From: Chloroflexota bacterium
GTDB lineage: Bacteria > Chloroflexota > Anaerolineae > Anaerolineales > Villigracilaceae
DNA: 46,369 bases
Reading direction: 5' to 3'
NCBI GenBank assembly: GCA_016866215.1
Contig: VGNE01000029.1
Location: forward strand, 1 to 46,369
This document shows, piece by piece, positions 7,007 through 21,411 of the stretch. Made by a program: the position numbers and the translations under genes. Numbering within the stretch: the stretch's first letter is position 1; each line of letters opens with the position of its first letter. A model generated the notes under the pieces. It was given only the letters and a program-made list of their open reading frames with translations, ran no database searches and was not told where the DNA came from.

Positions 7007-8428
7007 ATGGCAGAACATAACAAACATACGGATCATGCCGAAGCGCACTTCCGCGAAAAACACTTGATGCTCGACCCGCTTCCTCGCGGGCAAATGAATG
7101 AAATGGTGATGGAGTCAATGCATACCACCTCATGGAAGTTCTGGGTGGTATTTGCAGGTCTAAGCGTGGTCGTGGCGTATGGCTTGTTCTACTCATGGGG
7201 GGTAATGATTGCAGAAGGCCTGGGTGTGGCTGGCGTCAATCGCCCGTCTTACTGGGGTATCTTCCTCGTCAACACCGTGTTCTGGATCGGTATCAGCCAC
7301 GCGGGAACGTTCATCTCTGCCATTTTGCGTGTGTTCAAGGCTGAGTTCCGCCGTCCGTTCACGCGCGCCGCGGAATTGATGACCACCTTCGGCCTCATCC
7401 AGGCCGGCTTCAGCATCTTAATGCACATGGGGCGTGTGTGGCTTTCCTACTGGCTCATGCCTTATCCGAACCAGCGCATGTTGTGGCCCAATTTGCATTC
7501 CCCGCTTACCTGGGACTTGCTGGCCATCACAACCTATTTGCTTTCATCCACAATGTATTTGTTTCTGCCGTTGATTCCCGATGTTGCCATGGCGCGTGAT
7601 CGTTCCAGCGGCTGGCGCAAGACTTTCTACAAAATCCTTGCGCTTGGTTTCCGCGGCACAGAGGGCGAGTGGACGCACCTGCGCAACGCGATGAACATCT
7701 TTGCGTTTGCCATCATCCCGGTCATGTTCTCGGTGCATACCATCGTGTCCTGGGACTTTGCCGCAGCCACCCGCCCCGGCTGGAACTCCACCATTTTTGG
7801 TCCGTACTTCGTGGTTGGCGCTCTTCATTCCGGTATGGGCGCTGTCGTTATGGTGTTGGTGGTTGTGCGCGGCACAATGAAGAACATGAAATACTTCATC
7901 CGTCCCGAACACTTTGAAGCCATCGGCAGACTCATGTTGATCATTTCCATGACATGGGCTTATTTCTTCTTCAACGATTACATGGTGCAATGGTATGGCG
8001 GAGACAAGTGGACGAAACAATTGCTGCATTTCCACGAAGCCGGTCCCATGGGCTGGATGTGGTTTGTCATGCTCATTTTCAATGTGGCAATTCCCTGGGC
8101 TGTATTGTGGAATGCCCGCTGGCGCGCCACGCCGTGGATCGTTTTCAGCGTCGGTTTGCTGATCAATGTCGGCATGTGGTTCGAGCGCTACATCATCATT
8201 CCCGTTTCTCTCAGCATTAACCGCATGCCCTTCACCTGGCGTCTGTACCAGCCCGGCATTGAAATTCCGCTTGGTATTGGCACGCTTGCCTTCTTCATCC
8301 TGCTCTACATGACGGCATCCAAACTGATCCCGCTCATCCCAGTTTGGGAAGTGCAGGAGGGGCAGATGGCGCACGAACTCAAGAAATTTGGACGCGAGAC
8401 CGTGGTCACGGTCAGCGAATTGGAATAG
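7007..8428 (+). CDS. actC: ActC, NrfD/PsrC-like quinol-binding membrane subunit, 473 aa
   Basis: Integral membrane subunit that oxidises menaquinol or ubiquinol and passes electrons to ActB. About ten hydrophobic helices are visible, beginning near residue 47 (WVVFAGLSVVVAYGLFYSW) and ending near residue 450. The conserved early segment around GISHAGTFISAILRVF and a following R-P pair are typical of NrfD-family quinone sites. It is preceded by GGGAGGG seven bases before ATG and followed after nine bases by actD. A 386-codon open frame on the opposite strand is a shadow of this gene. Confidence 0.92.
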   Translation: MAEHNKHTDHAEAHFREKHLMLDPLPRGQMNEMVMESMHTTSWKFWVVFAGLSVVVAYGLFYSWGVMIAEGLGVAGVNRPSYWGIFLVNTVFWIGISHAGTFISAILRVFKAEFRRPFTRAAELMTTFGLIQAGFSILMHMGRVWLSYWLMPYPNQRMLWPNLHSPLTWDLLAITTYLLSSTMYLFLPLIPDVAMARDRSSGWRKTFYKILALGFRGTEGEWTHLRNAMNIFAFAIIPVMFSVHTIVSWDFAAATRPGWNSTIFGPYFVVGALHSGMGAVVMVLVVVRGTMKNMKYFIRPEHFEAIGRLMLIISMTWAYFFFNDYMVQWYGGDKWTKQLLHFHEAGPMGWMWFVMLIFNVAIPWAVLWNARWRATPWIVFSVGLLINVGMWFERYIIIPVSLSINRMPFTWRLYQPGIEIPLGIGTLAFFILLYMTASKLIPLIPVWEVQEGQMAHELKKFGRETVVTVSELE

Positions 8429-8437
8429 GAGGACGCG

Positions 8438-8974
8438 ATGGCTGAATCCAACCTTGTAGATATCCTGGCGGTCTTTCCGGATCTCGAACCTGCCGCCGAT
8501 GCCATCGAGCATCTGCGCTCCCTCGGCGTCCACGACGACTGCATGAACGTCATCTCCGGCATCCCCGTCACCGAAGCCATGCTGGGACGCCCAAGCCAAT
8601 GGACAAACGTCCCGCGCATCGCGTTGGGCGGCGCGCTTCTGGGCTTTGGCGCGGGTGTCTTCCTTGCATTCGTCTCTCCCTACCTTTATCCCTATCCGAT
8701 TCAAGTAAGCACACAGGCGTTCATTCCAGGTGCGCCCACTGTTGTTGTGTTATTTGAACTAACCATGCTCGGCATGTTGCTCTCCACCTTCCTCGGCGTG
8801 TTTTTGGATAGTTTCTTCCCCAACTACCGCCCGATGAAATACGTGCCTGAGGTCAGCGATGGGAAGATCTGCATCCTGGTCGAATGTTCGTATGTGGAGG
8901 AAAAGAAAATAATGGACGCCTTGAAAAAACTTGGCGCCGAATCCGTGAAACCTGCGGAGGCGCAGCACCTATGA
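8438..8974 (+). CDS. actD: ActD, two-helix membrane subunit (DUF3341), 178 aa
   Basis: Small structural subunit of Alternative Complex III. The N-terminal soluble part (about 1-60) contains the family pattern of a short regulatory-like fold (LAVFPDLEPAADAIEHLRS). Two transmembrane helices follow at about residues 65-87 and 103-127, then a soluble tail. AGGAGG is seven bases before ATG. Its stop overlaps the actE start in an ATGA, so the two are translationally coupled. Confidence 0.88.
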   Translation: MAESNLVDILAVFPDLEPAADAIEHLRSLGVHDDCMNVISGIPVTEAMLGRPSQWTNVPRIALGGALLGFGAGVFLAFVSPYLYPYPIQVSTQAFIPGAPTVVVLFELTMLGMLLSTFLGVFLDSFFPNYRPMKYVPEVSDGKICILVECSYVEEKKIMDALKKLGAESVKPAEAQHL

Positions 8975-9528
8975 GACTCTTAAAACAACTCCTCATCGTC
9001 TTCGCCGTCCTCGGCGCGCTTACCGGCGTGTTGATGATCTTTGCCTATGACGTGATCAAAATTGACTGGGTCGTCTTTATGGAGATCCAGGATTCCTACG
9101 GCACGCAGGAAAAACCCCTGCCCGTTCCCGCCCAATCCATTCCGGTGGAAGGCGCCGCCTACATTCCTGGCACGGGTGCGCCGCTCAATCCAGTGCCTGC
9201 TGATGAAATCTCGTTTGCACGAGGTGCAGAACTATATTCCATTCATTGCCAGATGTGTCATGGTGAGGATGGGCAGGGAAATGGAACGATTGCGGCTTTT
9301 CTCGTCAAGAAAAAGCCCGCCAACCTGACCAGCGAACTGGTTCAAAGCAAAAGCGATGGCAGCCTTTTCCTGACCATTTCAAATGGCATATTTAACCCAA
9401 ACAACAGCTTGTTCCCGGATATACAATTCTCCGGGCAAATGCCGCCGCTCAATGAAAACCTGACTGTGCGTGAGCGCTGGGATGTAGTGAATTACATCCG
9501 CACGCTAACAACGGTAGAAGGGCAATAG
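8971..9528 (+). CDS. actE: ActE, membrane-anchored monohaem cytochrome c, 185 aa
   Basis: Periplasm-facing cytochrome subunit of the complex. The ATG at 8971 is chosen because it forms an ATGA overlap with actD; a longer frame from 8884 would run inside actD. One N-terminal helix (about 5-27) is followed by a linker and a cytochrome c domain with C93-QM-C96-H97. The SGQMPPL segment probably supplies the Met axial ligand, and WDVVNYIRTL is the usual C-terminal helix. The next gene starts 13 bp later. Confidence 0.9.
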   Translation: MRLLKQLLIVFAVLGALTGVLMIFAYDVIKIDWVVFMEIQDSYGTQEKPLPVPAQSIPVEGAAYIPGTGAPLNPVPADEISFARGAELYSIHCQMCHGEDGQGNGTIAAFLVKKKPANLTSELVQSKSDGSLFLTISNGIFNPNNSLFPDIQFSGQMPPLNENLTVRERWDVVNYIRTLTTVEGQ

Positions 9529-9541
9529 GGAGGTATTTCTC

Positions 9542-10204
9542 ATGAATGACGATGTAAGAAAATATATCTATGGCACATTGGTCGTTTTTGTCTTTGGACT
9601 CCTGGTATGGATCAGCTTTATCTATGTCAATGCTTGTGGATTCACATTAACTTGTAATCGCGGCGCATTTGTAGTTGAACGAACGCCCATTCCAACCCTT
9701 ATTCCGGCCACTCTGCCTGCCATGCAAATCACCACTAGTGAAGTTGCCGTTCCCGACCAATGCAGTGTCGCCGCAGTGGATTTAATCGGTGAATGGGTTG
9801 CGGCTGGTTCCTCTGAAACGGATGTGTTCCAATTTGTGGATATCAACGGGCATAATTGTGAGTCTACTTTTGAAGAAGTGAAGCTTCTTTTTATCGAAGG
9901 CAACCTCTGGTATTCTGGCTCGCTTTCCTGTGTTTCCTGTCACTCAGTGGATGTGGCTGTCTCCCCCGCACAACTGGACTTGAGCACCTATGCAGGCATT
10001 CTTGCCGGTTCACGCCGCGCCGACGCCGAATCCAGTGGCACAGACGTTCTCGGCTCTGGCAACTGGGAATCATCCCTATTGTATGAATTCATTGCCGCTA
10101 CCCGAGCGGATGTGCCCGGTCATACCGAAGCGATCGCTGATCTGGTGATTTTTGCGGGTAGACCGCTCCCGCCAGCGGTTCTGACAGCAACCCCGACACC
10201 GTAA
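9542..10204 (+). CDS. Membrane-anchored c-type cytochrome-like protein at the end of the act operon, 220 aa
   Basis: Unassigned last gene of the operon, behind a strong GGGAGG site. One N-terminal helix (about 9-29) is followed by an outside domain with a single CVSCH haem motif (C130-H134) and a Thr/Pro-rich C-terminus. Four further cysteines (C32, C38, C74, C106) could form disulfides. In characterised act clusters this position is held by actF, a second NrfD-like subunit, but this protein is unrelated to that in topology. It may be an electron acceptor or an extra subunit. The call as a cytochrome rests on the one haem motif. Confidence 0.75.
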   Translation: MNDDVRKYIYGTLVVFVFGLLVWISFIYVNACGFTLTCNRGAFVVERTPIPTLIPATLPAMQITTSEVAVPDQCSVAAVDLIGEWVAAGSSETDVFQFVDINGHNCESTFEEVKLLFIEGNLWYSGSLSCVSCHSVDVAVSPAQLDLSTYAGILAGSRRADAESSGTDVLGSGNWESSLLYEFIAATRADVPGHTEAIADLVIFAGRPLPPAVLTATPTP

Positions 10205-10216
10205 TCGGTGGAAATC

Positions 10217-10250
10217 AAAAAAGACTTGATCAAACGCTCAAGTCTTTTTT
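10217..10250 (+). terminator. Terminator of the act operon
   Basis: AAAAAAGACTTGA - 8-base loop - TCAAGTCTTTTTT, located 13 bp after the last act gene. Strong stem with T-run. Confidence 0.9.
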
Positions 10251-10313
10251 GTTGAATATTTCCATAGCCAGATAAGAAAATACCCGATCCCTCAGCGGAG
10301 GTGCATATCCTAA

Positions 10314-10369
10314 AAGGAAAACGCCCGACTATGAGGCGTTTTTTTCTGGCGGAGAGGGCGGGATTCGAA
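10314..10369. repeat. Duplicated tRNA-Ser 3' end and terminator, remnant copy
   Basis: A near-identical copy of 10405-10461 (one-base indel). It includes the terminator hairpin and the last 18-20 bases of the tRNA-Ser gene up to GGATTCGAA, then diverges abruptly. It cannot be a tRNA itself. It may be a tandem duplication scar or an old integration footprint. Confidence 0.85.
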
Positions 10370-10407
10370 TATTATCCCCTCAATGGGGGCGCGAGAACCT
10401 AAATAAG

Positions 10408-10440
10408 GAAAACGCCCCGACTATGAGGCGTTTTTTTCTG
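10408..10440 (-). terminator. Hairpin following tRNA-Ser
   Basis: On the minus strand AACGCC - 10 bases - GGCGTT is followed by TTTT, directly after the tRNA 3' end. The same hairpin is present in the duplicated copy. Confidence 0.6.
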
Positions 10441-10441
10441 G

Positions 10442-10528
10442 CGGAGAGGGCGGGATTCGAACCCGCGAACCTTTGTGGGTTACACGCTTTCCAAGCGTGC
10501 GCGCTAAGCCAGACTACGCGACCTCTCC
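10442..10528 (-). tRNA. tRNA-Ser (anticodon GGA)
   Basis: Folds as an 87-nt cloverleaf: acceptor GGAGAGG/CCTCTCC, anticodon stem CACGC/GCGTG with loop TTGGAAA (anticodon GGA), a long variable arm (class II), T-loop GGTTCGAATCC and discriminator G. The CCA end is not encoded. Confidence 0.95.
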
Positions 10529-10723
10529 AGTTTCAAGCGTGCGAATTATACCATGTGTCATTATTCCTTTCGAATTGCGAATTGCATCAGAGATAATGTT
10601 ACTTCATCCTCTCTTGTCACCCGCCCTCACTGGTTCGACAAGCTCAACACCCCGCCTGCCCTTTTCCCGCGAAGCGTGAGAGAGGGGGAGATCGTCCTGA
10701 CGAAAAATCATCACAATTGGGGA

Positions 10724-10759
10724 GAGGTCCACCCACACCTTATCAACGTGGGCGGTTTA
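10724..10759. repeat. Dispersed hairpin repeat GAGGTCCACCCACACC..., copy A
   Basis: Contains CCACCCAC and GTGGGCGG around TATCAACG, able to fold as a hairpin with one G-U pair. Near-identical copies occur at 12909-12944 and, more diverged, 11657-11696, all in the same orientation just beyond the 3' end of minus-strand operons. Confidence 0.8.
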
Positions 10760-10787
10760 CTATCACACAGCGAACATTCTCAAACAG

Positions 10788-10816
10788 AAAGTCCGAAGCC
10801 AGCGACTTCGGACTTT
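10788..10816 (-). terminator. Terminator of the hicB-hicA-ygiT operon
   Basis: AAAGTCCGAAG - 7-base loop - CTTCGGACTTT, 18 bp beyond the stop of the zinc-finger gene. Both strands show A/T tracts at the base. Confidence 0.8.
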
Positions 10817-10833
10817 TCAATTTTATAGTTTGC

Positions 10834-11067
10834 TTATGCTTCCACAAACTCTGCAACAGCAACGCTTTTTATTTTCGTTAGATTCTTACGATGTACCTTA
10901 ATTCGCTCGATCTCATGCAAAGTATTTGCTGTGAGATAGCTTTCCCCGCAATTGGGGCAACTGACTACAGGCACGTTTTCTATAATCAGCAAATTCGCGC
11001 TTTTGCCGTAACTTCGTGTGACGTAACGGATTTCGGCTCCGTTCTTGCCGCAAATGTCGCAAATCAT
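10834..11067 (-). CDS. YgiT-type zinc-finger protein, 77 aa
   Basis: Has two CxxC knuckles (C3-x2-C6 and C37-x2-C40) like the N-terminal domain of MqsA and the small YgiT-type antitoxins. Such proteins usually pair with a MqsR or DUF4258 RNase toxin. Here its ATG overlaps the hicA stop as ATGA, so it forms the third gene of a hicB-hicA operon. It lacks the helix-turn-helix half of MqsA. Its function in this setting is unknown; it may be an accessory antitoxin or a recruited leftover of a different module. Confidence 0.8.
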   Translation of the reverse strand: MICDICGKNGAEIRYVTRSYGKSANLLIIENVPVVSCPNCGESYLTANTLHEIERIKVHRKNLTKIKSVAVAEFVEA

Positions 11068-11291
11068 TTCAACAACTCCAAAAACTCTTCGCGCTCCATC
11101 TCACAATCGCGGATAATTTTCAGCATCAAACCAGGTCCAATTGTCTCGCCACGATGAACAGGGACAACCGTTCGCCTGCCATCGGTATGACTTAAGAAAT
11201 GATGACTTCCCTTGATCCGCAAAACGAGAAAACCCGCTTTTTTCAACGCGGCAATAACTTGTTGACCGGTGAGGCGCGGGAACTTTGGCAT
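11064..11291 (-). CDS. hicA: HicA-family mRNA interferase toxin, 75 aa
   Basis: Small double-stranded-RNA-binding-fold toxin that cleaves mRNA. The start MPKFPRLTG at 11291 matches HicA; an upstream frame start would add 24 residues lying inside hicB. The conserved GSHHFL segment contains the catalytic His, followed by the PVHRGETIGPG motif. TGATG joins hicB to hicA, and ATGA joins hicA to the next gene. The antitoxin-first order is the less common arrangement but is known for this family. Confidence 0.9.
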   Translation of the reverse strand: MPKFPRLTGQQVIAALKKAGFLVLRIKGSHHFLSHTDGRRTVVPVHRGETIGPGLMLKIIRDCEMEREEFLELLK

Positions 11292-11503
11292 CAGACATTC
11301 ACAGCAATACGTTGCATACCGATAAACTCTTGTGTTGGAACATCGCCTTGCACTTCCAGGCATAACTCAATCGCCTCGCGGATTCGTTCCATGAGTTTAT
11401 CCAATGACTTGGCTTGCGTATGGCATCCTGGCAATTCAGGGACGCTGGCAACATAATAGCCTTCTTCGTCACGTTCAATAATGACGTTAAATTCTTTTGT
11501 CAT
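11291..11503 (-). CDS. hicB: HicB-family antitoxin, 70 aa
   Basis: Partner of HicA. The sequence matches the partial RNase-H-like HicB fold: EEGYYVASVPELPGCHTQ, then a helix with EAIELCLE. It is short and has no C-terminal DNA-binding domain, so autoregulation is not obvious. AGGAG lies nine bases upstream of ATG. Confidence 0.88.
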   Translation of the reverse strand: MTKEFNVIIERDEEGYYVASVPELPGCHTQAKSLDKLMERIREAIELCLEVQGDVPTQEFIGMQRIAVNV

Positions 11504-11656
11504 GGTTTTTCTCCTATCGCTATATTACCATATCCCTTCCCCCGCAGCAGACTTGCCTCTCGCCAGTTCTCCCCCAAATCCGATCACTGCGGACACTGAA
11601 TCCGCATACATAATTTCAATGTCGTATTTGGGAGAGATGTCCGAAGGACATAGGGG

Positions 11657-11696
11657 CACCACCCACCCCCACTCCCTATCATCGCGGGCGGTTTAC
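11657..11696. repeat. Dispersed hairpin repeat, diverged copy B
   Basis: ACCCACCCCCACTCCCTATC followed by a GCGGGCGGTTTA end resembles copies at 10724 and 12909. A further arm pair TCTCCCCCAAAT / ATTTGGGAGAGA lies just upstream (11569-11637). Confidence 0.65.
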
Positions 11697-11703
11697 TATG
11701 ATT

Positions 11704-12084
11704 TTATTTTTCCATATACTTTCTTGCATCGAGTAGAAAATCCCTTGCCTGATTGATCATATCCGCCGCAACGTCTTCGCCGATTCCCGTATCTACTCCA
11801 TAATCCCCAGAAATACGTTTTTCAAATCCGTCCCGAAGCCAGCGATGATATTTCGGGTCAAGCGCCTTTGTCTTTGCAAAGTTCTTGCCATACGCCGCAA
11901 TGACTTGGCCATGCTGGTTAAGTTTGATGTCAAATTCGTTATATAACAAAGCCTCGGCAACATAGAACATCGCATAATAGGCGCGTCCAACCGCAATCTC
12001 CGCTTTTCCCATATTCGTCAATCCTTCTGCGGCTTCGATGGCATCCAATGCCTTGTCCAGTAATTTGCTGGCGTATTCTTTCAT
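11704..12084 (-). CDS. HEPN-domain protein of an MNT-HEPN pair, 126 aa
   Basis: All-helical HEPN family. Typical C-terminal features KYHRWLRDGFEKRISGDYG and a final helix are present. The family's RNase signature is R-x4-6-H within RAYYAMFH; here it reads RAYYAMFY (R34...Y41), so the catalytic His seems to be replaced by Tyr. The start overlaps the MNT gene stop as ATGA. The MNT partner normally neutralises HEPN by adding nucleotides. The change may mean a weakened or inactive toxin, or use of another residue. Confidence 0.85.
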   Translation of the reverse strand: MKEYASKLLDKALDAIEAAEGLTNMGKAEIAVGRAYYAMFYVAEALLYNEFDIKLNQHGQVIAAYGKNFAKTKALDPKYHRWLRDGFEKRISGDYGVDTGIGEDVAADMINQARDFLLDARKYMEK

Positions 12085-12419
12085 GCAGGCAATCCTTCTT
12101 TATGAATGTTGTAAAGCAGGGGTTTTTCATTCGCTGAATTCTTCCACTGTATTTCCTTGATAAAAATACAACTGACTGTAACGTCATACTCTAAAGAGAC
12201 ATCGCTTGCCAACTGGCTGATTTTCTTCTGCTCGTTCCAATAATTGCTGTAATCCTTGAGCAAAATCATCACATCCACATCCGAGCCTTGACGATAATCT
12301 CCGCGCGCATAGGACCCGTACAAGTAGACGGCTTTCAGCCTGTCCCCATAAATGCGGACAAGCCCTGCCTTCAACTCTTTCATCAGTTTCCTGATACGCA
12401 GTGGCACTTTCCTGTTCAT
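12081..12419 (-). CDS. MNT-type nucleotidyltransferase, 112 aa
   Basis: Minimal nucleotidyltransferase of the polymerase-beta fold, the antitoxin half of MNT-HEPN pairs. The signature is intact: YGSYARGD with G35-S36 and the metal pair D47-x-D49. A C-terminal helix contains SLEYDVTVS. It is translationally coupled to HEPN. Upstream, TAAAAT sits six bases before the ATG with no Shine-Dalgarno site, so the transcript may be leaderless. Confidence 0.88.
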   Translation of the reverse strand: MNRKVPLRIRKLMKELKAGLVRIYGDRLKAVYLYGSYARGDYRQGSDVDVMILLKDYSNYWNEQKKISQLASDVSLEYDVTVSCIFIKEIQWKNSANEKPLLYNIHKEGLPA

Positions 12420-12464
12420 GCTCTTATTTTACCTTTTTATTCCTACGCCCCTGCTAGGATTTAT

Positions 12465-12746
12465 TCATGCCAATTGCACCGTCAACTTCTTTCCTAAAGC
12501 GGACGCGGCGCGCTCCAACGTGAACAAGGTGATCGAGGCATTTTCGGGGTCGAGCAGACGTTCCAGTGCGGCGCGGCTGGTCTTCATGCGATTTGCCATT
12601 TCGGTCTTGGTCAGTTTCTTTTTCTTCATTTCCTCTGCAATTTGATAGGCAATGACACGCTTGATGGCTACAGTTTGTACCTGTTCGTAAAGATTTTCCT
12701 CTTTGAGAAAATCATCAAAGTTGCTTCCGATGTGTTTTTTGTTCAT
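12465..12746 (-). CDS. XRE-family antitoxin-like regulator, 93 aa
   Basis: Helix-turn-helix DNA-binding protein. The HTH spans about residues 43-85 (KLTKTEMANRMKTSRAALERLL) and is followed by a typical HigA-like end (LERAASALGKKLTVQL). No toxin gene is attached on either side, so it is a solitary antitoxin or regulator. A TAAAAT box is six bases from the ATG, suggesting a leaderless mRNA. It lies between MNT-HEPN and the vsr operon. Confidence 0.8.
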   Translation of the reverse strand: MNKKHIGSNFDDFLKEENLYEQVQTVAIKRVIAYQIAEEMKKKKLTKTEMANRMKTSRAALERLLDPENASITLFTLERAASALGKKLTVQLA

Positions 12747-12781
12747 GGCGGTATTTTACATCAAAACCTGCCCCCCACCTG

Positions 12782-12851
12782 CCTCCCCCAAATGGGACAA
12801 CGAAGTATTCACTGTTTTAATTTAAATTTAAATTGCCCCATTTGGGGGAGG
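12782..12851. repeat. Inverted repeat with 15-bp arms
   Basis: CCTCCCCCAAATGGG (12782-12796) is mirrored exactly by CCCATTTGGGGGAGG (12837-12851) around an A+T-rich loop. Together with the adjacent copy C it forms a composite repeat in the gap between the XRE and vsr genes. A weaker version lies upstream of copy B. Confidence 0.85.
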
Positions 12852-12908
12852 TGCCCGTTAGGGCGGAGGGGGCAAATCGTCCAGCTCAAAGGCGGACTCA
12901 ATCAGGGT

Positions 12909-12944
12909 GAGGTCCACCCACACCCTATCAACGTGGGCGGTTTA
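12909..12944. repeat. Dispersed hairpin repeat, copy C
   Basis: Matches copy A (10724-10759) at all but one base and ends four bases before the stop of vsr, again at the 3' end of a minus-strand operon. Confidence 0.85.
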
Positions 12945-12948
12945 GTTT

Positions 12949-13404
12949 TCATCTTTTACGCTTCATAACGATACTGTATATTTTTTCGGAGGCTTTTTCT
13001 GGATTTTCATGTTCCCAAGCTCGAACAACTCTCCACCCTGCTTTTTTCAACCGCTTGTTTGTGTCTGCATCGCGTATTTGATTTTGTTTTATCTTATTCT
13101 TCCAAAACTCAGCATTGGCTTTTGCTTGTGTTCCATGAATGGGGCAGCCATGCCAGAAGCACCCATCAACAAAAATCGCTACTTTGGCAGATCGAAAGAC
13201 AATATCTGCTCTCCTATTCAGTTCTTTGACGGGTCTGATATCAATTCGAAAGCGCAAGCCTTTTTTATGTAATTCTGAACGAAGAGACTTTTCTGGAGCA
13301 GTATCTCTAGGTTTTGCAGCTTGCATTCTTTTCAAAGCCACATCGGAAGATGGGCTAGGATTTTGAATTTTTCGTTGTGTCTTTTTTATTGATCTTTTAT
13401 CCAT
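12949..13404 (-). CDS. vsr: Vsr-family DNA mismatch endonuclease, 151 aa
   Basis: Very-short-patch-repair nuclease, classically nicking at T:G mismatches left by deamination of 5-methylcytosine. Conserved elements: catalytic Asp region RADIVF (D67), FVDGCFWHGCP with D80 and H85, H90, and the late RAWEHE motif (130-133). Its length fits Vsr with a longer basic N-terminus. It is 16 bp downstream of the GHKL ATPase gene and in the same operon as the Dcm methylase. In methylase-ATPase-Vsr operons it could be the cleavage module rather than a repair enzyme. Confidence 0.92.
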   Translation of the reverse strand: MDKRSIKKTQRKIQNPSPSSDVALKRMQAAKPRDTAPEKSLRSELHKKGLRFRIDIRPVKELNRRADIVFRSAKVAIFVDGCFWHGCPIHGTQAKANAEFWKNKIKQNQIRDADTNKRLKKAGWRVVRAWEHENPEKASEKIYSIVMKRKR

Positions 13405-13420
13405 ATGTCGAGAACAAGAC

Positions 13421-15076
13421 TTATTGCCCAGAAAGCAAACTTCGTATTCTTCCTTTTATGTTTTCATAAACTGAATTGAGTTTATTTTTCGCGGCGTCAG
13501 TTAACAGGGCTGTATGTGCAAGGGCATCTCTGATAGGTTTATATTCATTTGCATCTCTTGATAAACCCGCCTCTTTAACTGGCTCCTTTACTTTATCGAC
13601 TAAGTTTGCGAGGTCATCCATCGACAAGTAACTCAAATCGGAAGCCAATCTTCTTATATCAATGCTGATATTGCCTTTTCCTTTATTCGCCATCTCTTTT
13701 TGTTTGAAATCGCTTACGGTTTTCTTGGCTTCTGGGGATAGAGGAATCTTTTTATCTTCGATATACTTTCTAACTAAATTTTCAGAGATAAAACATTCCG
13801 CATAAGACGAGAAATTAAATTGAGCGTCATCCACCAACTCGTTCACCCATTGATTAACTACTTCTTTGTTCTTTGACTTTTTAGGCAAAGAATAATCACC
13901 TGAAACAGCATTGAACAACTCTCTAGATTTTCTGTCCCTTTTCGAGTAACGCGGATTATCTGGGTCACCATCTTCGTTGATTTTATTTCTCCATTTATCC
14001 CAATCATCAATTACTCGCGTCAAAACGGCTTTCAGGTGATCTAACAATTCCTGGAACTTCGGATCATTCGCAACAATACCTTCTCTGCTACTTGTAAACC
14101 TGTCTTTTTCAGGTTCATCTAACTCATTAAAGTGAACTTGTCCATAAAGATAGCTCTCGACAATCCTTGCTGTAGGGATATGCTTTAGGATATCTTTCTC
14201 TCTAAGTCTGCCGTTTACAAATAGATCAACCCCAATCTTTTCTTCAATATCTGCAATCTTGAGTTCTTTGGGGGTTTCAACAGACGCTATAAATCCTTTG
14301 ATAGCAATTGGTCGCTTGACAATTCTGGTCTCTTTTAATTTTTCTAAAGTTGCAATATATGGATCATTTATTTCGTTAATAATCCACAGAAATTGCGTTT
14401 TGTCTGCAAGCTCCGAGAGGTTTTCATATGTAATTTTCTCCGTACCAAGCCATATATTGAAACTGTTATCCAAAAGAGAGAATCGAAAATAAAGAGCAAT
14501 TAATTTTTTGAGGATTTCTGCATTGTTCTTTATGCCATCCGTCACATTTTCGAAATAGATTATGGTCCCATGATGGTGTTTAGACGTGAAACTTCTAAAT
14601 TTGTCATATTCAACCGAGCCAAGTTTGTACTGTTGGGGCGTCAAATCATCTGTTATAGCTTGGTCTAAATCCGAATTATCAATAACCCCATCTATATATT
14701 TCTCAGCATCTTTTGTCTTCGACAAAACACTAATTTTGTCAGCACAAGACAAAAGTGCCAGTTTGCCTATACCTTTCCTGCCAATAAAAGATCTTCCCTT
14801 GCTGGTGGATATCGAACCATCTTTTCTTTTTGAATACCCTATTTTCAGAAACTTATTTTGAAAATCCTCTGCGGTCATTCCATAACCATCATCTTTGATG
14901 ACGAGAGAGTTTTTTTCTTTATCTATGTAAATCCATACATTTGTGGCATCGGCGTCCCATGAATTAGAAATAGCTTCCCCAAGCACAGTCATAAAACTTC
15001 TATACAGATTCCTCCCTAAATGGTTTAAAACACTTAAGGAAATTTCAAACGAGAACTGATCGCCTTGTTTTGCCAT
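13421..15076 (-). CDS. GHKL (MutL/HSP90-like) ATPase with possible C-terminal HEPN motif, 551 aa
   Basis: N-terminal ATPase domain with all three GHKL signatures: GEAISNSWDADA (E34, N38), DDGYGMT (62-68) and GRKGIGKLAL (99-108). A middle domain contains the KELKIADIEEKIGVDLFVNG region seen in MutL/MORC-like proteins, and then a helical C-terminus. In that C-terminus, PIRDALAHT gives R516-x4-H521, which matches the HEPN RNase motif. The ATG at 15076 is chosen because it gives a shorter overlap with dcm; an upstream ATG at 15112 is possible. ATPases of this type occur with Dcm and Vsr in restriction-like operons. The HEPN call is inference. Confidence 0.85.
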   Translation of the reverse strand: MAKQGDQFSFEISLSVLNHLGRNLYRSFMTVLGEAISNSWDADATNVWIYIDKEKNSLVIKDDGYGMTAEDFQNKFLKIGYSKRKDGSISTSKGRSFIGRKGIGKLALLSCADKISVLSKTKDAEKYIDGVIDNSDLDQAITDDLTPQQYKLGSVEYDKFRSFTSKHHHGTIIYFENVTDGIKNNAEILKKLIALYFRFSLLDNSFNIWLGTEKITYENLSELADKTQFLWIINEINDPYIATLEKLKETRIVKRPIAIKGFIASVETPKELKIADIEEKIGVDLFVNGRLREKDILKHIPTARIVESYLYGQVHFNELDEPEKDRFTSSREGIVANDPKFQELLDHLKAVLTRVIDDWDKWRNKINEDGDPDNPRYSKRDRKSRELFNAVSGDYSLPKKSKNKEVVNQWVNELVDDAQFNFSSYAECFISENLVRKYIEDKKIPLSPEAKKTVSDFKQKEMANKGKGNISIDIRRLASDLSYLSMDDLANLVDKVKEPVKEAGLSRDANEYKPIRDALAHTALLTDAAKNKLNSVYENIKGRIRSLLSGQ

Positions 15077-16118
15077 GATGTCCCTCAATATGTAATTTGA
15101 TTGATTTTCCAATTACAAAGCCTAAATCCACTGGCACTGCATTTCCAATATGAACACCTAATTTCCTTATAAAAATATCTTTTTCATTTTCATAAAATTT
15201 GTAGTCGATAGGAAATGTTTGTAAAATAGCAGCTTCTCTTATAGTTAATGCTCTATTTTGCGTTGGATGCCCAAACCTTCCTGTGCCGTAATTGTGAAAC
15301 TGCGTAGTAATTGTTGATGAAGGTTCATCCCAAGACATCCTTCCATAAACTGACTTATATGTGTTGCCAGTAATTTTTTTATGACAGGCTAATTTTAATT
15401 CCTCGTTCCAATCAAACCAAGTTCCATTTGGCTTGGATGCTTTAATGCGCTGTAAATTAATTCCTGTAAGTTTTATACTTCTGTGCAATGGGTCGCTTTC
15501 ACAAACCTCTCCCGCTTCTACTGGAGGAAGATGTTCGATTGCATCCCTCAATGTAACGTAATTTTCTTCGGAACGCGTTTTAGGAATCAGGGAAATTTCT
15601 CCATATTTAGACGCCAATAAAACAAGCCTTCGTCTCTTTTGTGGGATTCCGTAATCGGGGCAAAAGACATTCGAATAGGAAACGAAATACCCCTTTTGTT
15701 CAAGAAAAGTAATGAAACCTTCAAATATTTTTTGATTTGCCAGATTGGGAACATTTTCCATTGTTACTATATCTGGATTTGTTTCATCTACTAGTCTTTT
15801 GAATTCACTTATCAACCGCCATTTTTTCGTTTGCTTCTTGTTCTTTATTTTATTGGAATGAGTGGAAAACGGCTGGCAAGGCGCACAACCAGCAAGGATT
15901 CTTATTTGATCTTTACTACGCCAGTATTTTTTGTTTATTTCCTCCCCACGAAATTTAGAAATGTCTTTCAAAATAAAATCGGCTTTTACATTCTCTTTGT
16001 AGGCAAATTGGGATGATTCGTCTAAATCCACACCTGCAACAACAGATATGCCTGCTTTCTGCAAACCATAAGAAAGTCCGCCAATTCCACAGAATAAATC
16101 AATCGCAGATGTCTTCAT
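15045..16118 (-). CDS. dcm: DNA (cytosine-5) methyltransferase, 357 aa
   Basis: Transfers methyl from SAM to C5 of cytosine. Motifs in order: I DLFCGIGG (7-14), IV with catalytic Cys CAPCQPFS (C81), VI MENV (120-123), VIII PQKRRR (159-164), a variable target-recognition region about 180-290, and X GNAVP (325-329). Length is normal. It is the first gene of a three-gene minus-strand operon with the GHKL ATPase and Vsr; all are visibly more A+T-rich than the flanking act and glyA genes, which suggests transfer. TATATT lies six bases from the ATG with no ribosome site. The recognition sequence cannot be read from the protein. Confidence 0.95.
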   Translation of the reverse strand: MKTSAIDLFCGIGGLSYGLQKAGISVVAGVDLDESSQFAYKENVKADFILKDISKFRGEEINKKYWRSKDQIRILAGCAPCQPFSTHSNKIKNKKQTKKWRLISEFKRLVDETNPDIVTMENVPNLANQKIFEGFITFLEQKGYFVSYSNVFCPDYGIPQKRRRLVLLASKYGEISLIPKTRSEENYVTLRDAIEHLPPVEAGEVCESDPLHRSIKLTGINLQRIKASKPNGTWFDWNEELKLACHKKITGNTYKSVYGRMSWDEPSSTITTQFHNYGTGRFGHPTQNRALTIREAAILQTFPIDYKFYENEKDIFIRKLGVHIGNAVPVDLGFVIGKSIKLHIEGHHGKTRRSVLV

Positions 16119-16202
16119 GCCAATAATATACCACTATCTTTAATGAATGGGACGGCGTCCTACCCTCCGCCGTCCCATTCACTATTTCCTATTCACTTGC
16201 TC

Positions 16203-19200
16203 TTACAACTTCGCAAACCTCGACACCACCTTCGCCGCCGTGGCGGGACGATCCATCACAGCGCCTTGATGAATGAGGATCGGCGTGCCTTCTTTTGCAT
16301 AAGCCAAATCCACGAAGGCTTGACCTGTGATGAACCTTGCTCCATCAATCGCGCAGGAGGTGACGAAGCCAATGCGCTCGCCATTGGCGTTGTCCACGGG
16401 GTCGCCGTTGTGCGGCATGCGGACGCGCTGGTCATCGAAGGTGAAACGGATGACCACACCCTTGCGTGTTTTCTCTCTTGCAACATAAGCGTCACGCCCA
16501 ATGAACCACGGCTTGTACGGTTTGACGTACGAACCGAAGCCAGCCTCTGCAACACCTAAATCTCGCATTGGGGGTTGAGTAGTGGCGCTTTCAGCGCCAC
16601 GTATCGAAACCCCGGAGCCCAGTCCCATTTCGTGACCGTACAACGGCAAGCCTGCTTCCGTGCGCAAGCTGTCACGCGCGCCCAAACCAATTGGCTTGAC
16701 GCCGAACTGCTCGCCCGCTTTCATCACCGCATTCCAGAAGTCCACGGCGCGTTCAGGGTGGACGAATAATTCAAACGCCATCTTCTCGCCTGTGTAACCC
16801 GTGCGCGACACAATCAAATCAAAATTACCAATTACTGCATCACATAACTCTGTCCTTTTGAGCGCAATTACTTTTTTACGGGTTTCATCGTCCACACCCA
16901 TTGCCAGCAGAATATCGCGGCTCTTCGGTCCTTGCAGGGCAATGTCCACCCGCATGGCAGAACCAGCTTTCGGGTCGCGCAGGTTGCGGATGTCCGCTTC
17001 GTAGCCGAATGTCCGCGCCCACGGTCGCCCGTTGTCAATCCGCACTTTTCCATCGCGCACACTTTCGAGCCAGATGCGATCCTTGTCATCGTTCGACGCG
17101 TTCACGACCACGAGATAATCATCCCAGCCGCGGCGATAGACGAGCGTGTCGTCAATCACGTCCGCATCGGGCGTGAGGAAGTGCGAATACAAAGACTCGC
17201 CAGGCAGCAGTCCGCCGCAGTCATTGCCGCAGACTGTATCGAGGAACGAAGCCGCATCCGCGCCGCGCACATCGTACACGCCCATGTGCGAAACATCGAA
17301 CAGTCCCGCCGCATTGCGCGTGGCAAGATGCTCCTCGAAAATCCCCGTGTACTGCACAGGCATTTCCCAACCCGCAAATGGGACCATTCTGCCGCCGCTT
17401 GATTTATGGACATTATACAACGCCGTGCGTTTTAGTGGACTCTCAGACTCGTTCCACTCGAAGGGCGGCAGCGCCTCTCGCTTCGCGTTAACCTCGGAGT
17501 TGATCCCGATATAAAAAGGTTTATCTCCGCTGTTAGCTTTTTCTTTCGGCACTGCAAGTTTCGCCTTGACCTCATTCACAACAAACGCTCCAGGCATTCT
17601 CTTCGTGCTGAAATCTTTTTCGCCGTTCAAATTGAACGACATATAACCATCCGAAAGATCGCGTAGCCATGTGGCAACCGCAGAAGCCTTCACCGCAGGC
17701 ACAGCCAATTGATAGGTCATATCGTCCACGTTCTTCAACGTCGCTTTGACTTTGCCCTTCGGAGTTGAAATCTCCGTCGCTTGAGTCTTGCCTTTCTTCA
17801 ACGCAGAAAGATCACTCGACGCAGCATAATCCAGCACCTGTCTCACACGCTGTCCGCTCAATTCATACACACCGCTCGTGGACTTATCGTCAACATAATA
17901 GAAGTGTGGGTAACCGCTCTTCTTGAACTTGAAGTCAATACCCGCAGATTCTGCCAACTTTCTCACTTTCAATTTGGCTGCATTCAACACATTGAAATCA
18001 AGTTTCGCACGGCGCTGTTTTCCTTTCTTCACTGTGTCCACAGAATGCGGCGCACAGGCGAGAAGCACATCCGCCATGATATTCGCCAACTCGCGAGTCT
18101 TCTTTTCGTCGAATCCGCGCTGTGTGATCCACGGCGTGCCGAGACGAATGCCGCTTGGGTCGGCCGAATTCTTGTCACCGGGAATCGTGTTGCGATTGAC
18201 CACCACACCGACGATATCCAAAATGCGCGCGGCTTGATCGCCACTTAATTTCGTGCCGTCTTCGCCGACAACCGAAGTCACATCCACATTCAGCATGTGA
18301 CAATTCGTCCCACCAAACGGCACGCGGAATCCGCGCTTTGTGAATTTGTCTGCCATCGCAACCGCGTTCTTGATCGTCTGTGCCTGCAACTTTTTGAATT
18401 GTTTCGTTTGAGCGAGTTTGAAAGTCAACGCCAAACCAGCGAATACATTGACATGCGGTCCGCCCTGCTCACCGGGGAAGACGGCTCTTTCAATCTTCTT
18501 TGCAATCGCCGCGTCGGTTGTCAGCAACACTGCGCCGCGCGGACCGTCAAGCGACTTGTGAGTGGTAGACATTACCACGTGAGCATATCCAATTGGCGAA
18601 GGCACAACTCCCGCCGCAACGAGTCCGCCGATATGGGAAATGTCTGCAAGGAGATACGCGCCGACTTCATCGGCGATCTCGCGGAACTTCTTCCAATCGG
18701 GAACCCATGAATACGATGAATAGCCCGCGATCAATAGTTTGGGTTTGTGTTCGAGAGCCAGCGCGCAGATGGCTTCGTAATCAAGCTTCTCATTCGGGTC
18801 AATCGTGTAATGCACCGCCTTGAACCACTTGCCTGAGCGATTCACAGATGAGCCATGCGAGAGATGACCGCCGTGAAGCAGGTTCAGTCCCATGACAGTA
18901 TCGCCGAGATTGAGCAAGGCTTGATAGACCGCGTTGTTGGCAGGGCCGCCAGAAAGTCCCTGCACATTGACATAAATTTGATCGGCGGTATAACCATTGG
19001 CCGCGAAAGCCTCCGCCGCGCGCCGGCGAGCCAGCGCTTCGACTGCATCCGCATATTCCACGCCCTTGTAATAGCGCGGGTCACCGCTGCGGCGATAATG
19101 AGCAAGCCGCGCGGGATAATCGAGAATCTCTTCCTCAGTCATCCAACGCGACTCTTCATCAGGGTAGCCTTCGGCATAGATATTTTGGAAAGCCGAAGCC

Positions 19201-19346
19201 AATGCCTCACGTACAGCCATCGGAGCAGTGGATTCGCTGGGGATGAGAATCAGCTTCCTGGCCTGCCTCTCAGCTTCCAGTTGGGTCAGATCGAAAACAT
19301 CACGGTCAAGTTTGGCGAGATCGCCACGAAATAAAAAATCGGACAT
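16203..19346 (-). CDS. glyA-gcvT: Serine hydroxymethyltransferase - aminomethyltransferase (GcvT) fusion, 1047 aa
   Basis: Residues 1 to about 435 are serine hydroxymethyltransferase, with the PLP lysine in STTHKSLDGPRG (K264) and ILIPSES near the N-terminus. About 436-635 is a Lys-rich linker plus a domain I cannot name. About 636-1047 is a T-protein-like folate enzyme (GWEMPVQY, FDVSHMG, SRTGYTGE, GLGARDSLRTEAGLPLYGHE). Both halves use tetrahydrofolate, so the fusion would couple serine/glycine interconversion to handling of methylene-THF. GGAGA precedes the ATG. Residues about 911-929 of the GcvT half come from an in-frame palindromic repeat. No gcvH or gcvP is nearby. Confidence 0.93.
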   Translation of the reverse strand: MSDFLFRGDLAKLDRDVFDLTQLEAERQARKLILIPSESTAPMAVREALASAFQNIYAEGYPDEESRWMTEEEILDYPARLAHYRRSGDPRYYKGVEYADAVEALARRRAAEAFAANGYTADQIYVNVQGLSGGPANNAVYQALLNLGDTVMGLNLLHGGHLSHGSSVNRSGKWFKAVHYTIDPNEKLDYEAICALALEHKPKLLIAGYSSYSWVPDWKKFREIADEVGAYLLADISHIGGLVAAGVVPSPIGYAHVVMSTTHKSLDGPRGAVLLTTDAAIAKKIERAVFPGEQGGPHVNVFAGLALTFKLAQTKQFKKLQAQTIKNAVAMADKFTKRGFRVPFGGTNCHMLNVDVTSVVGEDGTKLSGDQAARILDIVGVVVNRNTIPGDKNSADPSGIRLGTPWITQRGFDEKKTRELANIMADVLLACAPHSVDTVKKGKQRRAKLDFNVLNAAKLKVRKLAESAGIDFKFKKSGYPHFYYVDDKSTSGVYELSGQRVRQVLDYAASSDLSALKKGKTQATEISTPKGKVKATLKNVDDMTYQLAVPAVKASAVATWLRDLSDGYMSFNLNGEKDFSTKRMPGAFVVNEVKAKLAVPKEKANSGDKPFYIGINSEVNAKREALPPFEWNESESPLKRTALYNVHKSSGGRMVPFAGWEMPVQYTGIFEEHLATRNAAGLFDVSHMGVYDVRGADAASFLDTVCGNDCGGLLPGESLYSHFLTPDADVIDDTLVYRRGWDDYLVVVNASNDDKDRIWLESVRDGKVRIDNGRPWARTFGYEADIRNLRDPKAGSAMRVDIALQGPKSRDILLAMGVDDETRKKVIALKRTELCDAVIGNFDLIVSRTGYTGEKMAFELFVHPERAVDFWNAVMKAGEQFGVKPIGLGARDSLRTEAGLPLYGHEMGLGSGVSIRGAESATTQPPMRDLGVAEAGFGSYVKPYKPWFIGRDAYVAREKTRKGVVIRFTFDDQRVRMPHNGDPVDNANGERIGFVTSCAIDGARFITGQAFVDLAYAKEGTPILIHQGAVMDRPATAAKVVSRFAKL
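16568..16614 (-). repeat. Palindromic repeat inserted in frame in the GcvT half
   Basis: On the coding strand it runs from GGGGTTTCGATACG to ACTACTCAACCCC, with a hairpin GTGGCGCT / AGCGCCAC in the middle. The ends match a family also present between genes at 43690-43726 and 43768-43813 (GGTCTCGATAYG ... CTCAACC or CTCGACC). It adds about 15-20 residues between YGHEMGLGS and VAEAGFGSY, which I expect to be nearly adjacent in relatives. Confidence 0.75.
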
Positions 19347-19557
19347 TGTTGGTCTCCGTAATTCGGGAATTGGGATTCGGGAAGTGTGTACACGATGGAC
19401 AATTCACGATTCCCGATTATCGCTGGTTGAATTGTAGGACTAGATGAGAAGAGGGTCAAGTGAAAAATAGCACGTTATTTTCTATAGTTGAATTACGCCT
19501 CGAATTTTGCTATACTATTTTCAAGTCAGCGATTTCATATTAAAAGGAGAATCTGCC

Positions 19558-20523
19558 ATGAAAGCGAAAAAACCATTTTGTCTATTTATCGTGCTGATCT
19601 TCCTGCTTGCCGCATGTACATTCTCTGCGCCTGCGACAGAAACTGCAACAGAGCCACCTGAACCAACCGAAGCGCCCACGGCAACGGAAGTTCCCCCAAC
19701 GGCAACAGCAACCGTTCCGTCGCGTCCGCTTTCCAATATTAGCGCCGACCCGCAGCGCGTAGAATTCCAGGCCGAAGATGGAAAAAATCTGGTGGGCTAT
19801 TACTATCCGTCGAAGTATGCCGACGCGCCGATCATGATCCTGATGCACTGGGCGGGCGGCGACCTGACTGACTGGTGCGAGATCGCACCCTGGCTGCAAA
19901 ACCGTCGCGACGAGAATCCCGCCGCGCTCGAGCGTTGTGCGAACGCCGGTTCTGGCTTGCCGGCAGGCATGTCCACGCCATGGTTGGATTCCACCTGGTT
20001 TCCACCCATGGCTCCGGAGGTTTCGATTGCCGTGTTCGCTTTTGATTTCCGCGATTACGGTGAGAGCGAAAAGGGACTGGGCAACCGTTCCAATTGGGCG
20101 AAAGATGCCAAAGCGGCCTTCGTCACGGCAGCAGGATTGGAAGGTGTGGACGCAACCCGCATGACGTCCTTGGGCGCGAGCATCGGCGCGGACGGCGCGC
20201 CGGATGGCTGTCTGCTCTACAATCAGGAGGCGGGAAGCGGATGCGTGGGCGCTTTTTCTCTGTCACCGGGCAATTATTTAGGAATGGACTTTGCCGCAGT
20301 GGTAAGAGACCTCGCCTCGACTCCGGTCTGGTGCCTGGCGGGCGAACTGGATAGCGGATCTGCTCCTGTTTGTGACGGCGCCAGCGGAGAGAACTATCGC
20401 TCCGAGATCTATCCTGCAAGCGACGATCACGGCATGATGCTTATTACTCCCGATCTGGAACCGCAACCCTTGATCCTGACCCAGGATTTCCTGGAACTCG
20501 TATTTGGAGAAAAAGTGAAGTAA
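19558..20523 (+). CDS. Alpha/beta-hydrolase-like lipoprotein, 321 aa
   Basis: Exported lipoprotein: the signal peptide ends in the lipobox LLAAC (C at about residue 18), followed by a Thr/Pro/Glu-rich tether to about residue 60. The hydrolase domain shows DGKNLVGYYYP, MILMHWAGG, the nucleophile elbow GASIGA, an acid candidate in AGELDSG and a His in SDDHGMML, so a full Ser-Asp-His triad is plausible. AAAGGAGA precedes the ATG at 19558, while an upstream frame start lacks a ribosome site. Several extra cysteines suggest disulfides. Substrate unknown; related proteins include dienelactone-hydrolase-like esterases. Confidence 0.8.
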   Translation: MKAKKPFCLFIVLIFLLAACTFSAPATETATEPPEPTEAPTATEVPPTATATVPSRPLSNISADPQRVEFQAEDGKNLVGYYYPSKYADAPIMILMHWAGGDLTDWCEIAPWLQNRRDENPAALERCANAGSGLPAGMSTPWLDSTWFPPMAPEVSIAVFAFDFRDYGESEKGLGNRSNWAKDAKAAFVTAAGLEGVDATRMTSLGASIGADGAPDGCLLYNQEAGSGCVGAFSLSPGNYLGMDFAAVVRDLASTPVWCLAGELDSGSAPVCDGASGENYRSEIYPASDDHGMMLITPDLEPQPLILTQDFLELVFGEKVK

Positions 20524-20690
20524 AAACCATCGCAACCGCAAAAATTGTGGCCTGTCTCTGCGAGCATTCCGCGAAGGAGTCTACGCCTTGCATTGGGCGA
20601 TCACATCGATAGGATATACCGGTGCTGGCAGGCGGTGCCAAGTAGAGAGCATGTGCCTCCTCTCAAACACATAATAAATTACGGTTTTCA
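20524..20690. other. Intergenic region with a decayed palindromic element
   Basis: Contains TGTCTCTGCGAGCATTCCGCG and GGTGCTGGCAGGCGGTGCCA, which resemble pieces of the element at 27885-28032. No gene is seen. Confidence 0.45.
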
Positions 20691-20719
20691 TTGACATTCC
20701 CAAATGCCTCAGGTAGAAT
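20691..20719 (+). promoter_or_regulatory. Sigma-70-type promoter for the tRNA-Ala genes
   Basis: TTGACA (20691-20696), 17-bp spacer, TAGAAT (20714-20719), 41 bp before the first tRNA-Ala. Near-consensus. Confidence 0.8.
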
Positions 20720-20760
20720 GTTCTTCGCCTTGCCCCGCGAATACACGGGATAAAATAATT

Positions 20761-20833
20761 GGGCCTGTAGCGCAGTTGGGAGCGCGCCTCAATCGCACTG
20801 AGGAGGTCAGGGGTTCGAATCCCCTCAGGTCCA
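20761..20833 (+). tRNA. tRNA-Ala (anticodon CGC)
   Basis: 73-nt cloverleaf: acceptor GGGCCTG/CAGGTCC with the alanine identity pair G3-U70, anticodon stem CCTCA/TGAGG with loop ATCGCAC (anticodon CGC), T-arm AGGGGTTCGAATCCCCT, discriminator A. CCA is not encoded. Confidence 0.95.
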
Positions 20834-20895
20834 CAGATTTACGAGTGACGATTTTAGATTGACGATTGTAAGACCCCATACAAATCGTAAATCTG
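20834..20895 (+). repeat. Inverted repeat between the two tRNA-Ala genes
   Basis: CAGATTTACGA directly after tRNA-Ala(CGC) is mirrored exactly by TCGTAAATCTG at 20885-20895. A second hairpin, CACTTGC / GCAAGTG, follows at about 20900-20920, and a degenerate copy of that hairpin follows the second tRNA. Confidence 0.7.
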
Positions 20896-20947
20896 AAACA
20901 CTTGCACCGTACGCAAGTGCAGGTGTCAACAATCCAAAATCGAAAAG

Positions 20948-21020
20948 GGGCCCATAGCGCAGTTGGGAGCGCGTCTCAATGGCATTGAGAAGGTCGAGGG
21001 TTCGAATCCCTCTGGGTCCA
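20948..21020 (+). tRNA. tRNA-Ala (anticodon GGC)
   Basis: 73-nt cloverleaf: acceptor GGGCCCA/TGGGTCC with G3-U70, anticodon stem TCTCA/TGAGA with loop ATGGCAT (anticodon GGC), T-arm GAGGGTTCGAATCCCTC, discriminator A. CCA is not encoded. Together with the CGC gene this looks like a local duplication with anticodon divergence. Confidence 0.95.
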
Positions 21021-21400: not shown

Positions 21401-21411
21401 TTAATCAACTA

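Follow-up and report, generated by a model that had tools for sequence, protein, structure and literature searches.

The stretch of DNA analysed here, a contig of 46,369 nucleotides from a Chloroflexota bacterium (VGNE01000029.1; its full length is called the window), encodes on its minus strand a C5-cytosine DNA methylase and, overlapping it, a GHKL ATPase with a HEPN-like C-terminal tail. We estimate a probability of about 0.5 that this pair is a restriction-like defence module whose output would be RNA cleavage and not DNA cleavage. The observations behind this estimate are the gene order, a domain swap at the end of the ATPase, conserved HEPN residues, the predicted fold of the tail, a methylase family that occurs with both effector types, and the association of that family with standalone HEPN nucleases.

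The methylase gene (15045..16118, minus strand, 357 amino acids; PF00145 (DNA_methylase), 9.9e-58) is the first of three. Its open reading frame (ORF) overlaps by 32 base pairs (bp) with that of the ATPase (13421..15076, minus strand, 551 amino acids from ATG; HATPase_c_3, 1.3e-22). The third gene encodes an accessory Vsr-type endonuclease (12949..13404, minus strand, 151 amino acids; PF03852, 8.1e-17; TIGR00632, 1.7e-36, 125.1 bits with a cut-off of 97.85). An earlier reading of the letters alone (the sequence-only reading) had described a methylase, a GHKL ATPase and a Vsr gene, overlapping or closely spaced on the minus strand, and we found all three ORFs intact. It had also pointed to GHKL ATPases with Dcm and Vsr in restriction-like operons, and such restriction-modification (R-M) operons were indeed described by Iyer 2008 (PMC2292703).

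A probable HEPN domain at the end of the ATPase

From the peptide PIRDALAHT in a helical C-terminus, the sequence-only reading had proposed a HEPN-like tail, with structure prediction and the joint conservation of R and H in homologues as checks. Both came out in its favour, the fold with modest scores. Modelled alone, residues 402-551 (13424..13873, minus strand) gave a confident helical bundle (AlphaFold2; predicted local distance difference test (pLDDT) 83.6, predicted template modelling score (pTM) 0.75). The predicted helices are 403-442, 448-468, 480-483, 486-493, 505-521 and 527-549, and the all-helical model spans 150 residues, HEPN domains being bundles of about 100-120. The motif R516-x4-H521 (RDALAH, 13514..13531, minus strand) lies at the end of helix 505-521. 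R516 and H521 are invariant in 13/13 members of the family of HEPN-tailed ATPases described below, and residue 517 is D or N in every one.

HEPN domains are described with an Rx4-6H motif at a helix end and an Ex3[KR] motif with an acidic residue (PMC3710099). The window ATPase agrees with the Rx4-6H motif as the close of helix 3 and with the polar N/D/H that follows its R, the modelled helix stopping at 521. A conserved acidic residue is likewise present in E432-x3-R436 (13769..13783, minus strand), which fits Ex3[KR] in 13/13 alignment rows; E432 and R436 sit in the long first helix of the model, and the helix-2 placement of PMC3710099 is thus unconfirmed. Altogether, 31 positions from residue 370 onward are invariant in the 13 members, including K513, P514, R516, H521, T522, E432, N433 and R436.

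Among known structures, the first PDB match of residues 402-551 in Foldseek was the HEPN RNase Csm6 (5yjc_B, probability 0.82, E 0.17). VIA-align placed 2q00 at Z 8.3, 1wwp at Z 8.2 and 1ylm at Z 7.2. Six of its first 16 rows are HEPN proteins by title or paper (1wwp, 1ylm, 8pe3, 4nqf, 6tug, 5yep), and we take four more (2q00, 2jpu, 1jog, 6m6w) to be HEPN proteins too; the HEPN rows, at Z 6.3-8.3, outnumber any other kind of protein among the closest structures. By themselves, such Z values do not decide the case of a helical bundle, and the invariance of R516, H521, E432 and R436 adds independent weight for HEPN. The lowest E values were 0.063 in a PHROGs scan of two C-termini, 1.0 in a viral structure library, and 0.34 in PDB sequences searched with the domain profile. 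Given the predicted fold with its modest scores and the invariant residues, we regard the tail as a probable RNA-cutting HEPN domain.

The HEPN-like tail stands where related proteins carry a DNA-cutting nuclease

The earlier claim that no ordinary restriction gene is present has to be corrected. The ATPase does fill the slot of a restriction enzyme, with residues 8-368 matching the NCBIfam BbrUII/HgiDII restriction enzyme family NF050001 at 1.3e-87, but the C-terminal part of that family is missing: the match covers profile positions 1-366 of 659, at 294.9 bits below the curated cut-off of 550. Two PADLOC type II restriction-enzyme models likewise end at ATPase residues 367-368. No DNase domain was recognised in the window ATPase by domain scans or by the C-terminal motif scan.

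Residues 11-375 form a MORC-like GHKL+S5 ATPase module (13952..15046, minus strand; VIA-align MORC3, NF050001). In the full-length model, residues 11-365 found their top VIA-align match in 5ix2_A, an ATPase-CW structure of MORC3 (Z 17.0, root-mean-square deviation 4.7, 292 aligned). E34, N38, D62, G64, G66, G99, G102, G104, K105 and T171, which we assign to the GHKL motifs, are all present and are invariant in an 8-row alignment. The window ATPase has the architecture of a paraMORC, with intact GHKL motifs at the N-terminus and an S5 domain after them, and the neighbourhood of one, with a cytosine methylase in 13/13 family loci and Vsr in 6/13.

We compared ten distant relatives of the ATPase (L009, L010, L020, L039-L045), taken from plasmid matches (11 of 43 plasmid records examined: H1-H3, H6-H9, H11, H12, H14, H19) and one phage match. 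L009, a truncated gene of 437 amino acids, was excluded. D...[DE]xK occurs in the C-terminal part of all nine intact comparators, in line with the paraMORC3 description of Iyer et al. (PMC2292703). By comparison, the 12 full-length HEPN-type members all end in R[DN]xxxH, and none shows D...[DE]xK, the sign of the restriction-endonuclease fold of paraMORC3, in a conserved position. In a crude motif scan the PD-(D/E)xK pattern also struck the HEPN-type L001 and L007 by chance, at unconserved places, and the R-x-H pattern struck comparators L010, L040 and L042, again at unconserved places.

A C5 methylase lies next to the ATPase in nine of the ten comparators (for L042, none within the 7 kilobases (kb) fetched). 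Eight of these nine methylases share 45-52% identity with the window methylase and that of L045 shares 26%, and seven of the nine intact comparators adjoin a methylase of the window's family. Against all 21 other loci compared, identity is 45-75% for 20 and 26% for the last. Residues 201-290 are the most conserved part in 21 methylases (mean commonest-residue frequency 0.71, elsewhere 0.54-0.60); they presumably take in a large share of the target-recognition region together with motif IX.

The tree of the ATPase N-terminal module splits the HEPN and PD-(D/E)xK classes (support 100/99), with L045 and L041 as long branches, while the methylase tree mixes the classes, which indicates that methylases changed partners. 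One clade for the 13 HEPN-partnered methylases was rejected (approximately unbiased (AU) test, p 4.9e-5; 9.4e-5 without the longest row), and the starred branches of the methylase trees by themselves require just two partner-type changes. As judged from these comparisons, one methylase family is combined with both effector types. A change of partner would be easiest if both types read the same mark. The ATPase, for its part, looks like a restriction-enzyme lookalike whose DNA-cutting end was replaced by a probable RNA-cutting end.

The methylase family also adjoins standalone HEPN nucleases

Further relatives of the methylase lie on plasmids (81 records), and we examined 10 loci from the 30 matches listed. 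At eight of them (L054-L058, L060, L062, L063) a DUF262 (GmrSD_N) protein and a MAE_28990-type HEPN nuclease adjoin the methylase; two of the 10 loci (H57, H77) had been chosen for a listed HEPN nuclease, and the unbiased count is 6/8. The Rx4H motif is present in all eight nucleases, and PF18737 was matched by the two tested. Of the remaining two loci, one is a DISARM system with Vsr and the other has a Z1 protein and Vsr. MAE_28990 is known from operons with ParB nuclease and DNA methylase genes (PMC3710099). By sequence, then, one methylase family adjoins HEPN nucleases in two architectures, fused and unfused.

The PADLOC model DrmMII (PDLC02651, MTase_II) matches the window methylase at 5.4e-105. 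Membership in DISARM, the candidate raised by this match, was rejected: no other Drm-like gene was seen nearby, and the DrmA/DrmB/DrmC combination was not found in the range 9000-22000, where not every ORF was scanned with Drm profiles. The large ORFs of this range encode the methylase, the ATPase, SHMT-GCV_T (serine hydroxymethyltransferase-aminomethyltransferase) and leucyl-tRNA synthetase.

Distribution of the gene pair

HEPN-tailed ATPases were found at 13 loci, the window included. The others are metagenome-assembled genomes of Gaiellales (L001), Woesearchaeota (L002) and Anaerolineaceae (L003), a member of the Bacteroidales (L004), plasmids of Paracoccus (L007) and Celeribacter (L008, gene split by IS1380), three viral contigs (L021, L023, L035), and the genomes G104, G706 and G565 (L032, L037, L038). 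L022 was left out, its ATPase being identical to that of L021, and L140 was too short. The family is thus scattered over several bacterial phyla and one archaeon, and part of its members belong to plasmids or viral contigs. It is also rare: matches to the C-terminal profile were obtained in 2/301 genomes of the window's phylum, both of its genus, in 3/395 of the phylum of L004 and in 1/396 of that of L001 (seeds included). Single-protein scans of viral contigs and phages gave no full-length member, but alignment queries did find members in viral contigs; a search of 5426 E. coli genomes gave only 62-base matches, in 8 genomes.

The sequence-only reading had treated the three genes as one unit. 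This stands for the methylase and the ATPase, whose genes directly follow each other in this order at 13/13 loci, overlapping by 4-47 bp at the nine loci computed, but not for Vsr. A Vsr gene occurs at only 6/13 loci, on the same strand and adjacent at four, downstream in the window and L003 and upstream in L004 and L038; in L001 it lies 2.3 kb upstream, and in L007 about 3 kb away on the opposite strand. No Vsr was detected in the sequence at hand for the other seven loci, among which the L035 contig starts at the methylase, its upstream side falling outside the view. Because of these counts, we consider Vsr accessory on sequence grounds.

Two details of single loci may be added. In L008 (2675-6092) the IS1380 element lies inside the ATPase gene and the methylase gene is intact. 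In L023 the ORF two places downstream from the ATPase gene (7713-8513) resembles, by eye, a Ymh-type HEPN protein.

Proposed mechanism

For a restriction-like module with an RNA-cleaving output we infer RNase activity, ATP-driven switching of a dimer, gating by methylation, phage defence and a role for Vsr. As a rule, HEPN active sites arise at the interface of two subunits, and GHKL ATPases dimerise as they close. The self mark would be set by the methylase at one DNA site; the MORC-like ATPase would be an ATP-driven clamp that responds to the unmarked DNA of invaders. The HEPN domain would take the place of the PD-(D/E)xK nuclease of related restriction proteins; ATP would close the ATPase dimer and so form a HEPN RNase site with R516 and H521. 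RNA would then be cut, and the cell or the infection arrested; an abortive-infection role would be plausible. Vsr would merely repair T:G mismatches from deaminated 5-methylcytosine.

More tentatively, and somewhat short of an even chance, this would be RNA-directed restriction: a methylase family that serves a DNA cutter in sister systems would license the cell against a MORC-like ATPase-HEPN RNase, and a missing mark would lead to the cutting of RNA and an arrest of growth. The methylases and the effector types would then amount to modules that can be exchanged around a single DNA site.

Evidence against the reading and alternative explanations

Several results weigh against an RNA-cutting, methylation-gated module. 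The full-length ATPase model (8 sequences) had a pLDDT of 65.9, which is low confidence. A Foldseek E of 0.17 and a VIA-align Z of 8.3 fall short of what would be safe for helical bundles, and the remaining 6/16 VIA-align rows are unrelated helical proteins at Z 6.7-7.9, interspersed with the HEPN rows and including a designed repeat protein, a trypanosome receptor and HD-PTP. A Pfam scan of the C-termini of 8 members found no family match (lowest chance E 0.019). Neither of two HEPN families could be taken as the source of the tail. Membership in Ymh (PF09509) was rejected, since 0/8 C-termini matched at E up to 10 (HMMER filters discard most weak matches) and profile comparison with six Ymh sequences gave a probability of 0.1%; descent from MAE_28990 was rejected as well (profile comparison probability <1%, not significant). 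The best local alignments with Ymh and MAE_28990 pair Rx4H with Rx4H, which reversed controls do not, at scores that are not significant.

The target site belongs to the same side of the balance. M.HgiDII recognises GTCGAC (PMC5867850). In 400 kb of the window's genome GTCGAC is the rarest of the 64 six-base palindromes (10 observed, 40.1 expected), and in G104, which has the system, its ratio is 0.09 (rank 8 of 64). Same-genus genomes in which no system was found have ratios of 0.25 (G020), 0.35 (G025) and 0.21 (G016). Depletion is thus about equal in relatives without the system, and we rejected a GTCGAC specificity inferred from site avoidance. Of all six-base palindromes, GTCGAC ranks last or next to last in abundance in 4/5 same-genus genomes sampled, with the system or without.

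Finally, the flanks fetched for 7/13 family loci contain other R-M genes: an EcoO109I-like enzyme and a second C5 methylase (L001), an N6_N4 methylase and type III Res (L002), another C5 methylase (L004), an MvaI/BcnI-like enzyme and a C5 methylase (L021), an Eco57I-like methylase (L037), dcm (L007) and MvaI/BcnI (L008). These neighbours may reflect defence islands only, and they would also fit a guard of another system. They strengthen the main alternative, a doubtful one suggested for Ymh-paraMORC fusions (PMC3710099), in which the HEPN domain is a fail-safe like PrrC/RloC, silent during working DNA restriction and cutting RNA if a phage inhibits or escapes it. Yet near the module no gene for DNA restriction could be recognised in the window, and inspection by eye revealed none in L003, L032 or L038; the HEPN domain stands in the position of the protein's own nuclease and is no addition to it, and the methylase gene is always tied to the ATPase gene rather than to neighbouring systems.

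The modest fold matches would also suit a HEPN-like domain that is inert and serves in dimerisation or in RNA or protein binding, with DNA attacked by another nuclease such as Vsr, which is a nuclease within the operon. We think this unlikely, as the catalytic residues are invariant in 13/13 members from several phyla and no Vsr is detectable in the sequence at hand for 7/13 loci. Less probable still is a solitary regulatory methylase with a chaperone-like ATPase and no defence role. Such a pair would accord with the resemblance of the ATPase module to MORC/Hsp90 and with the Celeribacter plasmid, which retains the methylase gene despite the IS1380-split ATPase gene, but it sits poorly with the scattered occurrence in several bacterial phyla and one archaeon, with some members on plasmids or viral contigs, and with the variable site, which in relatives holds an Eco57I-like methylase and toxin-like genes among others.

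Genomic setting

The module lies in an A+T-rich block close to two toxin-antitoxin loci, as the sequence-only reading had it. G+C is 36-39% at 13001-16000, 37% in the first kilobase and 45-55% in the remaining kilobases of the window. Upstream of the module stands a serine hydroxymethyltransferase-aminomethyltransferase fusion gene (glyA-gcvT). In six same-genus genomes with sufficient sequence beyond the conserved glyA-gcvT, the methylase, the ATPase and Vsr are all absent, and the site holds other variable genes, including an FRG-domain protein, an Eco57I-like methylase, PIN, DUF5615 and toxin-like genes. From these comparisons, horizontal gain of the module at a variable site is probable. 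Signs of a mobile setting are the plasmids and viral contigs, the low G+C and the variability of the site.

About 40 bases within glyA-gcvT (about 16573-16611) occur again at 14 other listed places of the genome with 82-95% identity, and thus form a dispersed short repeat inside a coding region. On the other side of the module, the toxin-antitoxin loci are MNT+HEPN (HepT/MntA-like, 11704-12419) and HicA/HicB (11064-11503); with an MqsA-like ORF they make up a cluster at 10439-12419 that adjoins tRNA-Ser. Small plus-strand ORFs at about 10725 and about 12905 encode near-identical peptides, GEVHPHxINVGGL, which suggests a DNA repeat flanking the toxin-antitoxin block on both sides. Beside Vsr lies a helix-turn-helix (HTH) gene (12465-12746) whose product is 94.6% identical to a same-genus counterpart (L134, 2576-3228). 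In L134 a DUF5615 (PIN-like) gene precedes the HTH gene; the window shows no such partner ORF, and its HTH gene may be an orphan antitoxin.

Relation to known systems and significance

The idea of a HEPN-ended GHKL ATPase in R-M neighbourhoods has been put forward before. PMC3710099 (Anantharaman et al. 2013) predicted paraMORC-Ymh (HEPN) fusions in such neighbourhoods as an analogue of PrrC/RloC, and these share with the window ATPase the C-terminal HEPN domain and a similar predicted logic. The window tail differs in having no PF09509 match, a comparison made with the Ymh profile and sequences, and nuclease replacement and a shared methylase are not among the features described in the available text of PMC3710099. 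Among the matches listed in the literature search, this paper alone brought paraMORC and HEPN together, which does not imply absence elsewhere. PrrC/RloC anticodon nucleases also join an ATPase and a HEPN RNase linked to R-M, but their ATPase is ABC-type (RloC being related to SbcC/Rad50) and they stand beside a separate R-M system (PMC3710099).

BbrUII/HgiDII (NF050001) and ParaMORC3 proteins, for example of phage PhiR44_1, have the same N-terminal GHKL+S5 module (residues 8-368), and the neighbouring methylase of PhiR44_1 is of the same family and 51% identical to the window's. Their intact relatives end in a PD-(D/E)xK nuclease, whereas the window ATPase ends in a HEPN-like domain. In VcSduA (Shedu type I-D/paraMORC3) a GHKL ATPase and a DUF4263 nuclease are both needed for phage defence (PMC12137116). 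VcSduA has an N-terminal GHKL ATPase with a C-terminal nuclease, as predicted for the window ATPase; its nuclease is of PD-(D/E)xK type and is reported to restrict the phage and spare the host, and a methylase is not mentioned in the available text of PMC12137116. The operons of MAE_28990 HEPN, ParB-like (DUF262) protein and methylase have the methylase family in common with the window, but their HEPN nuclease has its own gene, in many cases on the opposite strand, and a GmrSD_N/DUF262 protein takes the place of the GHKL ATPase as partner. As far as we have seen within the literature covered, what is new is a HEPN-like domain outside Ymh and without Pfam match, in place of the PD-(D/E)xK end of a restriction-enzyme lineage, together with a shared, recombined methylase.

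If the reading of an RNA-cleaving restriction-like module is true, self/non-self marking of DNA would be wired to RNA cleavage through an ATPase platform that elsewhere bears a DNA cutter, and unmarked foreign DNA might shut the cell down rather than be cut. The compact gene pair, with natural PD-(D/E)xK sisters as controls, would offer a test of how MORC/GHKL ATPases switch an attached nuclease. Such a switch would be of wider interest because MORC ATPases function in eukaryotic chromatin too (PMC2292703).

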